Assembly: GCA_943333125.1 (NCBI GenBank)
Contig: CALQSB010000001.1
Span: forward strand, 94,381 to 158,380
Source of the DNA: Chitinophaga pinensis
GTDB taxonomy: Bacteria; Bacteroidota; Bacteroidia; Chitinophagales; Chitinophagaceae
Direction of reading: 5' to 3'
Length of the DNA: 64,000 bases
In this document: piece by piece, positions 10,409 through 63,522 of the stretch
Layout: every line of letters begins with the position of its first letter
How positions within the stretch are numbered: position 1 is the stretch's first letter
The notes under the pieces: generated by a model
Database searches by the model: none
What the model was told of the DNA's origin: nothing
What the model saw: only the letters and a program-made list of their open reading frames with translations
Position numbers and translations under genes: made by a program

Positions 10409-10465
10409 CAATTAGATGCCGACGAAGGTCTTTGACCGAGTCTTTAAAAGTAAATGGTTTTAAAG

Positions 10466-10543
10466 GTTTAATTAGTTCAAAAGGTTCAACATGTCCCGAT
10501 CACCAACCTATTGAACTAATTAAACATTTTGAACCTTTTGAAC
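10466..10543. repeat. Imperfect inverted repeat of GTTCAA words
   Basis: GTTTAATTAGTTCAA (10466-10480) / TTGAACTAATTAAAC (10511-10525) perfect 15-bp arms, plus TTTGAACCTTTTGAAC. Confidence 0.7.
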
Positions 10544-10572
10544 AAAAAAACACAAATAATATAACGCCATTG

Positions 10573-61163: not shown

Positions 61164-61973
61164 ATGGACATAAATAAAATTTTAAGTTCTGATGTACTCG
61201 ATATCATTTTCGAAGACAGAAATAAAGCATACGGTGCTTATGAATTAAGAAAAACCTACAACACAAGGTTGAAAAAAGCATTAATGTTTACAGGTTCTTT
61301 ACTGTTGTTAATTTTTGTAAGTACTGTTTTAGCTAATGTATTAGATAAGTATAAGAGCAAAAGCACTATTGATGTTATCGATACAGAGATGGCTCAGGTG
61401 AAAGATGAACCACCACCGCCACCACCGCCACCGCCAACTCCACCACCACCGCCTGAGGTTAATCAGGTGAAATTTACACCACCCAAGATTGTAAAGGATG
61501 AAGAGGTGGCTCCTGAAGAAAAAATTGAAGAAATCAAAGAAGACCAGGTAATCAGTACAAAAACGGTTGAGAGCGATAATAAAGATCAGATTGTTCCCGT
61601 TGAAGACAATTCTAAAGCAGTGGAGATGCCAAAAGAAGATGATGAGAACAAAGTATTCACCAAAGTAGAAGTAGATGCATCTTATGTTGGTGGCGAATCA
61701 GCATGGAGAAGATATCTTTCCAATAATTTAGATGCTGGTGTACCCGGAGAAAATGGAGCGCCTCCCGGAACTTACACAGTAATTGTAAGATTTATTGTAG
61801 CAAAAGATGGCAGTGTAAGTGATGTTCAAGCTGAAACTTCTCATGGTTTTGGTATGGAACAGGAGTCAGTTCGTGCTATTAAAAAATCTGGTAAATGGAC
61901 ACCCGCTATTCAAAATGGTCGTAACGTAACAGCTTATAAGCGCCAGCCGATTACATGGGTGGTGCAGGAATAA
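61164..61973 (+). CDS. tonB: Energy transducer TonB (paralogue B)
   Basis: DVLDIIFEDRNKAYGAYELRKTYNTRLKKAL; PPPPPPPPPTPPPPPEV; C-terminal VRFIVAKDGSVSDVQAETSHGFGMEQESVRAIKKSGKWTPAIQNGRNV. Confidence 0.94.
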   Translation: MDINKILSSDVLDIIFEDRNKAYGAYELRKTYNTRLKKALMFTGSLLLLIFVSTVLANVLDKYKSKSTIDVIDTEMAQVKDEPPPPPPPPPTPPPPPEVNQVKFTPPKIVKDEEVAPEEKIEEIKEDQVISTKTVESDNKDQIVPVEDNSKAVEMPKEDDENKVFTKVEVDASYVGGESAWRRYLSNNLDAGVPGENGAPPGTYTVIVRFIVAKDGSVSDVQAETSHGFGMEQESVRAIKKSGKWTPAIQNGRNVTAYKRQPITWVVQE

Positions 61974-61993
61974 ATTTCAAATATTTTTGAAGA

Positions 61994-62022
61994 AACCTCT
62001 CGTCAAAACGGGAGGTTTTTTT
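61994..62022 (+). terminator. Intrinsic terminator of exb-tonB operon
   Basis: AACCTCTCGT-CAAA-ACGGGAGGTTTTTTT. Confidence 0.85.
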
Positions 62023-62031
62023 ATGTGTTTG

Positions 62032-62089
62032 ATTTCCATATAATCCCTAGCCATGGCCTTAAGGCCATGGCTAGGGATTATATGGAAAT
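62032..62089. repeat. Perfect 58-bp palindrome
   Basis: ATTTCCATATAATCCCTAGCCATGGCCTT|AAGGCCATGGCTAGGGATTATATGGAAAT, 29-bp arms, no loop, no mismatch. Confidence 0.98.
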
Positions 62090-62133: not shown

Positions 62134-62141
62134 TATCTTTG
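62134..62141 (+). promoter_or_regulatory. -7 box TATCTTTG 4 nt upstream of mnmE ATG
   Basis: TATCTTTG-TTTT-ATG. Confidence 0.6.
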
Positions 62142-62145
62142 TTTT

Positions 62146-63522
62146 ATGAATAACAAACTATCGGGTTGGGATGATACTATTGTGGCGTTGGCTACTGCAC
62201 CGGGTGTTGCGGCTATCGGCGTTATCAGAATAAGTGGGTTTAATACATTCTCAATCGTTTCGAAATTATTTCCTTCCAAAAATTTATCAGTACAACCATC
62301 TCATACTATTCATGTTGGATTGTTGAAAGATGGCAATGAAGTGATTGATGAAGTTGTATTGTCATTGTTCAAAGGGCCCAAAAGTTACACAGGAGAAGAT
62401 ACGATAGAAATCAGCGGCCATGGTAGTCCGTTTGTACAAGAACAAATCATCAATGTTTGTATAAAATACGGCGCTAGAATAGCAAAGCCAGGAGAATTTA
62501 CACAACGTGCATTTTTGAATGGCAAATTGGATTTAACACAAGCAGAGTCCGTTGCTGATTTGATTGCAGCTAATACAAAGGCTTCGCAAAAAACAGCATT
62601 AAATAATATCAGGGGAGGGTTTTCAAACGAACTGCAACAAATGCGAGAGCAACTCATTCAATTTGCGTCATTGATAGAATTAGAATTGGATTTTGCTACA
62701 GAAGATGTGGAATTTGCAGACCGAAATAAATTCTATAGTTTAATAGAGCAGATAAGAAAAACTACTGATAAATTAATATTGTCATTTCGGTTGGGGAATG
62801 TAATAAAGAATGGAGTTAGTGTAGCTATTATTGGAAAACCCAATGCAGGTAAATCTACTTTATTAAACTGTTTATTGAATGAAGACCGGGCTATAGTAAG
62901 TGAAATAGCCGGCACCACAAGAGATACTATCGAAGAAACAATTAATATTAATGGAATAATTTTCAGGCTGATAGACACTGCAGGTATCCGAAGCCGTGGG
63001 AAAGACATTATTGAAAATATTGGGATAGAAAAAAGTTTGGAAAAAATGCATTCCGCAGATCTGGTGCTATATATATATGATGCAAATACGATGCTTAAAG
63101 ATGAATTATTGCAACAGGAAAAAATATTCAAGGATGCAGGAATTAAATATTTTTTAATAGCTAACAAGTCTGATTTAATTGAACTGAAAGCTGTTGAATT
63201 TTCTAATGCATCTATTCTGCAGATTTCCGCAAAACAACATTTGGGAATAGATCTCCTCAAAGAAAAATTATATCAAAACACTGTAGATAATTCTGTAAAT
63301 ACAGATCACACTATTGTTACTAATGCAAGACATCTGGAAGCGCTTCTGCAGATAAAGATTTCATTAGACTCAATTAAAGTGGGATTAGACAGCAAGCTCT
63401 CTGGGGATTTATTGGCAATAGAAATTCGTACATGCTTGTTTCATCTTGGAGAAATAACAGGGGAGATTACAAATGAAGACAAGCTGGATTATATATTTAG
63501 TAAGTTTTGTATCGGAAAATAG
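62146..63522 (+). CDS. mnmE: tRNA modification GTPase MnmE
   Basis: TIVALATAPGVAAIGVIRISG; GKPNAGKSTLLNCLLNEDRAIVSEIAGTTRDTIEE; DKLDYIFSKFCIGK C-terminus. Confidence 0.97.
   Translation: MNNKLSGWDDTIVALATAPGVAAIGVIRISGFNTFSIVSKLFPSKNLSVQPSHTIHVGLLKDGNEVIDEVVLSLFKGPKSYTGEDTIEISGHGSPFVQEQIINVCIKYGARIAKPGEFTQRAFLNGKLDLTQAESVADLIAANTKASQKTALNNIRGGFSNELQQMREQLIQFASLIELELDFATEDVEFADRNKFYSLIEQIRKTTDKLILSFRLGNVIKNGVSVAIIGKPNAGKSTLLNCLLNEDRAIVSEIAGTTRDTIEETININGIIFRLIDTAGIRSRGKDIIENIGIEKSLEKMHSADLVLYIYDANTMLKDELLQQEKIFKDAGIKYFLIANKSDLIELKAVEFSNASILQISAKQHLGIDLLKEKLYQNTVDNSVNTDHTIVTNARHLEALLQIKISLDSIKVGLDSKLSGDLLAIEIRTCLFHLGEITGEITNEDKLDYIFSKFCIGK

Follow-up and report, generated by a model that had tools for sequence, protein, structure and literature searches.

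Short, dispersed intergenic hairpins with compensated stems are characteristic of REP elements with TnpA_REP/RAYT genes (REPtrons, BIMEs, REPINs), and in REPtrons similar hairpins flank Y1 transposase genes. 'Double-foot' REPs have been described for TnpAY1 subclass 2.4 (PMC6006769, PMC3733652, PMC3116915), and subclass 1.2 has been reported to have neither REPs nor the properties of insertion sequences (PMC6006769). Two further systems bear on the element discussed here: the IS200/IS605 insertion sequences, and template-switch (quasipalindrome) mutations, in which fold-back synthesis – a documented process – makes inverted copies of local sequence and yields perfect stems (PMC8794818).

The element analysed here lies between a tonB-like gene and mnmE in Chitinophaga pinensis and, in our reading, is probably a young, non-autonomous mobile palindrome of REP type, mobilised in trans by a Y1 enzyme and extended by outer arms of fold-back origin. 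The kind as such is already known; relative to the REP and Y1 literature compared, the novelty lies in double-foot palindromes without a loop, in their private arms and in a link to the motifs of subclass 1.2. Unlike REP elements, the family has no GTAG or GTGG foot (the mark of the classical GTAG superfamily), has a loopless CTTAAG centre, reaches perfect arms of up to 32 bp with private outer arms beyond the core, and is associated with a Y1 clade bearing the motifs of subclass 1.2 rather than those of class 2. Unlike IS200/IS605 elements, the palindrome has neither a gene nor a left/right pair of ends. Compared with ordinary template-switch mutations, here a dispersed repeat core would have been extended, copy by copy.

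A perfect palindrome between tonB and mnmE

The features of the locus, in coordinates of the window (the whole 64-kb stretch of DNA analysed), are:

61164..61973, plus strand: tonB-like gene, the upstream neighbour (TonB C-terminal model, under its cut-off)
61988..62023, plus strand: separate intrinsic terminator 3' of tonB, persisting in congeners that lack the palindrome
62032..62089, no strand assigned: whole element copy, a perfect 58-bp loopless palindrome (equal to its own reverse complement; single-stranded DNA fold)
62032..62044, no strand assigned: private left outer arm ATTTCCATATAAT, pairing only with the right arm of this copy and absent from other copies
62045..62076, no strand assigned: family core CCCTAGCCATGGCCTTAAGGCCATGGCTAGGG (foot, hairpin, foot), recurring with covarying arms in contig C13 of the same genome, in G134 and G136, and in other genomes
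62077..62089, no strand assigned: private right outer arm ATTATATGGAAAT, the complement of this copy's left arm and absent from other copies
62134..62141, plus strand: TATCTTTG, possible Bacteroidota-type -7 promoter element of mnmE, read in the sequence and kept in congeners
62146..63522, plus strand: mnmE, the downstream neighbour (MnmE equivalog models exceed their cut-off)

As the original prediction had stated, the stretch is identical to its own reverse complement at 58/58 bases, and loopless arms of 29 bp have a chance expectation of about 2e-12 (64 kb, 36% GC). No other loopless palindrome in the window exceeds 18 bp; across 1.17 Mb more of this genome (about 1.23 Mb including the window), loopless arms reach 19 bp at most, and hairpin arms of whatever kind 21 bp, in a terminator-like structure. 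This genome is a draft assembly in 85 contigs, about 43% of which was surveyed by stretches, in addition to pattern and model searches of the whole. As single-stranded DNA, the palindrome folds at -30.8 kcal/mol (z -12.15). Its symmetry ends at 62032 and 62089, outside which the flanks differ from each other. Elsewhere, contig C10 (L123:15616-15735) carries two AT-rich loopless palindromes with arms of 16 and 19 bp, at most 120 bp apart.

A length of 58 bp is well under that of palindromes known to be lethal or strongly SbcCD-limited in Escherichia coli, and a perfect family palindrome of 64 bp stands in a congener (L269); the earlier remark that such palindromes are usually unstable in bacteria was therefore overstated.

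A strong intergenic hairpin invites comparison with an intrinsic terminator, but the palindrome has no loop and no adjoining T-tract on either strand, and the terminator search found only the separate structure upstream; the terminator reading was thus rejected, in line with what had been said of the element at the outset. Rfam gave 0 matches over the whole window at the gathering threshold, and the spacer matched phage and plasmid collections at chance level only. Lying downstream of the tonB terminator and ahead of the promoter region of mnmE, the palindrome is probably neutral, with little effect on either gene.

A dispersed family with covarying arms

The central part of the palindrome, CCTAGC-NNN-GGCCTTAAGGCC-NNN-GCTAGG, recurs at two other sites of the same genome and in sister species. 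The pattern CCTAGCNNNGGCCTTAAGGCCNNNGCTAGG was matched in contigs C1 and C13 of this genome and in G134 and G136, and its reversed control gave no match; the pattern GCCATGGCCTTAAGGCCATGGC, with mismatches allowed, led to palindromes at other places in G006, G040 and G134 whose arms show compensated changes. A 42-bp relative whose arms measure 19 bp lies in contig C4, and the genome as a whole has only about three family copies. The genome search proposed earlier thus had a divided outcome: the core does recur, but the exact 58-mer is single-copy, and a 27-base half-site searched with up to 3 mismatches matches this genome only at the two arms described here. For the same reason, the refutation envisaged at the time – a single-copy palindrome absent from relatives – holds for the exact 58-mer and fails for the core, which belongs to a family.

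In an alignment of 14 members, 96% of cells are paired and 35 are doubly changed, against 10.6 after shuffling, so that the arm co-variation asked for by the original prediction is borne out; some core positions are fixed by the search pattern, while the pairs that vary most were left free, and the signal disappears when the partner is shifted by a single column. A covariance model detects the family in 22 of 93 congeners. As in classical REPs, the copies are several, scattered between genes and compensated in their stems; G006 has the most, about 24, and many of these form composites with GGGCTAAAGCCC hairpins that lie some tens of bases off. The copies sit at unrelated genes. The foot reads CCTAGC / GCTAGG in the window copy and GAATTGCC in congeners. 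With related palindromes and compensated arms at other loci of the same genome and in congeners, the non-autonomous palindromic element proposed among the earlier candidates has gained substance.

A scan of public genomes found the core three times in the LacPavin Bacteroidetes metagenome-assembled genome (MAG), twice in the SulCav MAG and singly elsewhere; the LacPavin and SulCav copies are bracketed by hairpins of GGGCTAAAGCCC and GGACTTTAGTCC type. The 32-bp core had no match in viral contigs, and five matches there to a loose 16-base core, which lacked symmetric flanks, were taken as chance.

Other repeats were encountered alongside. In contig C4 (L083:1-310), a tandem duplication of about 147 bp, carrying hairpins of the CCCACCGTT type seen at the Y1 gene of contig C3, adjoins a CTAGCC-family palindrome. 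A second dispersed inverted-repeat family, GGTTCAATAAGTTCAAAAGGTTC with TTGAACCTTTTAAACC, occurs at 10452-10546 of the window, at L094, at many places in G134, G136, G138, G051 and G056, and also in the tonB–mnmE spacer of G134 and G136; it makes up most of the 55 to 66 matches per genome that the C13 neighbourhood returned in several congeners. The sequence CALPIT020000152.1 (L137), titled Streptomyces griseus, is identical to congener G134 over the stretch compared, and its label looks wrong.

Y1 transposases and their flanking hairpins

Genes with the Y1_Tnp domain are present in 82 of the 93 congeners, and the density of GC-rich hairpins next to Y1 genes is about 48 times that of the background (0.99 versus 0.02 per kb), which was taken from one genome, the one studied here. 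One clade of nine Y1 genes, clade B (support 100/100), is of particular relevance: eight of the nine have flanking hairpins with a one-sided foot, GAATTG or CAATTC, and several of the genomes concerned also carry dispersed palindromes with similar feet on both sides and similar arms. The family palindrome was detected in 6 of 8 clade-B congeners, compared with 22 of 93 overall (p about 0.002, or 0.02 when the two training genomes of the model are left out); the covariance model found no copy in the clade-B genomes G015 and G119. In G037, a perfect 34-bp double-foot palindrome, ATCAATAGCCCCGGAAATTTCCGGGGCTATTGAT, lies about 130 bp from a Y1 gene. Related hairpins flank Y1 genes in clade-B congeners and in G037, an arrangement like that of a REPtron which the CTAGCC subfamily does not show in the genome studied here. 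Perfect loopless palindromes, 30 to 40 bp long and of another sequence family (CATAGCCCACGGTTTAAACCGTGGGCTATG type), flank the Y1 genes at four further loci (L051, L056, L064 and L069, in G122, G031, G050 and G025).

Clade-B proteins carry HuH (DH[VI]H or close variants), WQ and YIKNQExH(H) motifs – the set (DH[IV]H, WQ, YIKNQ..HH) of TnpAY1 subclass 1.2, an assignment by motif scan only, in which some members show variants such as EHVH or DHCH. They share with that subclass a low copy number and an occurrence in Bacteroidota, but differ from its published description as free of REPs (PMC6006769) in the hairpins found at nearly all of their genes.

The genome studied here has three placed Y1 genes (two further weak Y1 matches are unplaced), none of them in clade B. 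As direct partners of the palindrome they were rejected: their flanking hairpins – CCCACCGTTNNAACGGTGGG in C3, GTTCCNNNGGAAC in C6 and CGACCCC..GGGGTCG in C44 – are of other families, and the CTAGCC subfamily flanks none of these three genes. The C3 and C6 proteins score above the cut-off of the NCBIfam IS200/IS605 transposase model – the likeness to those insertion sequences – and under that of the REP-associated model. The core does not flank the Y1 genes of LacPavin, SulCav or other MAGs either. Since the placed Y1 genes lie outside clade B and keep company with other hairpins, the mobiliser of the CTAGCC subfamily has to be inferred; we assume a lost, divergent or foreign enzyme.

Private outer arms

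Beyond the core, the window copy has 13-bp arms that are perfectly complementary to each other and common to no other copy. Among 45 copies aligned on the core, 11 have private arms of at least 6 bp, and in 8 the flanks pair for at least 8 bp (17, 14, 13, 12, 11, 9, 9 and 9). Pairing the left flank of one copy with the right flank of another gives at least 8 bp in 21 of 1980 combinations, all within a single genome; the probable cause is the composite copies of G006, whose shared flanks run in opposite orientation. Arm extensions are missing from most copies of G006. The longest family palindrome, perfect over its 64 bp, is that of G127 at L269; the window copy ranks second.

One outer arm looks like an inverted copy of the local flank, for which the simplest source would be fold-back (template-switch) synthesis primed at the core hairpin (cf. 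PMC8794818). Two copies, L272 and L277, have a left arm that runs into the stop codon of the gene upstream, which is weakly consistent with the left arm being native. A common ATTTCC end of the outer arms, seen in three copies only, was not upheld in the larger set.

Presence in relatives and age

The palindrome is absent from the orthologous tonB–mnmE spacer of all congeners read (about 20), including the nearest at this locus, G134 and G136 (80% nucleotide identity). These spacers keep the terminator and have otherwise diverged, so the comparison of empty sites suggested earlier confirms absence without allowing a clean empty site to be drawn. At a csp-associated site, two sister species, G136 and G005, share a mismatch-bearing copy, where the genome studied here has no copy but one arm only, between TCCTA repeats. 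A clean insertion had been read from G136 and this genome, and was withdrawn once G005 proved to have the element too; loss between the TCCTA repeats in the present lineage is as likely as insertion, or likelier.

Family copies thus decay and can be lost, and the perfection of the tonB–mnmE copy is therefore best read as youth, not maintenance. Of the explanations offered at first, recent formation is supported by the absence of the palindrome from the spacers of congeners, whereas the older, sister-shared copy elsewhere carries mismatches; with older copies decaying, there is no need to invoke selection or active maintenance. Separately, identity to this genome varies strongly by locus (for G005, 74% at tonB but about 91% at the sites in C4 and C13); for G005, G134 and G136 this suggests recombination or mixed bins.

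Origin of the palindrome

The core – CTAGCC foot, GGCCTTAAGGCC hairpin, GGCTAG foot – belongs to a dispersed double-foot family, which an IS200-like Y1 (HuH) transposase would mobilise in trans by working on hairpins of single-stranded DNA; beside the clade-B transposase genes of congeners lie hairpins of this kind in single-foot form. During insertion, or in a replication slip afterwards, the core hairpin may have folded back at its 3' end and copied some 13 nt of adjacent flank, generating the private outer arms and with them the perfect 58-bp palindrome. Against this stand the three placed Y1 genes of the genome itself, which are not clade B and have flanking hairpins of other families, the two clade-B genomes without a model-detected copy, the LacPavin and SulCav Y1 genes without a flanking core, the diverged spacers that yield no clean empty site, and the missing canonical GTAG foot.

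Template switching during replication could also have acted alone, extending a chance or decayed hairpin and correcting it to a perfect palindrome with no transposase involved. A single such event yields both a perfect stem and compensatory changes (PMC8794818), and the private arms call for this kind of copying in any case; however, the common foot and CTTAAG core at unrelated loci and in unrelated genomes, as well as the similar hairpins beside Y1 genes, would go unexplained, and we consider it unlikely. Private complementary arms would equally result had the element landed in the middle of a pre-existing inverted repeat, the outer arms being an older palindrome of the site. Some Y1 enzymes do choose structured single strands, which speaks for such a history; yet it needs many prior loopless arms of 9–17 bp, and such palindromes are rare in this genome, where the coreless csp-associated site – possibly a deletion product – has one arm only. 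This makes it an improbable origin.

A conserved regulatory site or dimeric-protein target kept perfect by selection would suit an intergenic position directly upstream of mnmE, but the same spacer lacks the palindrome in all congeners read, family copies sit at unrelated genes and an older copy decays. We regard this as very improbable, and found no support for the dimeric-protein target or the resolution site put forward earlier. An assembly fold-back, also among those candidates, might be suspected in a draft of 85 contigs; it is opposed by homologous cores in independent assemblies, by a length of 58 bp that falls below ordinary read length, and by symmetry that stops at 62032 and 62089 between unlike flanks, and can hardly be credited.

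Implications

More tentatively, the mobile-palindrome reading may extend to the enzymes: orphan IS200-like Y1 proteins of subclass 1.2 might have REP-like substrates of their own in Bacteroidota, loopless and double-footed, with insertion leaving an inverted copy of the flank instead of a direct target duplication and so giving rise to perfect palindromes of up to 64 bp. What had appeared to be an isolated curiosity becomes part of a family with a testable enzyme partner, and a transposase subclass described as having no substrate acquires a candidate one. The copies also form a natural series that separates the hairpin core from flank copying, and thereby bear on how long perfect palindromes arise in, and are lost from, bacterial chromosomes.
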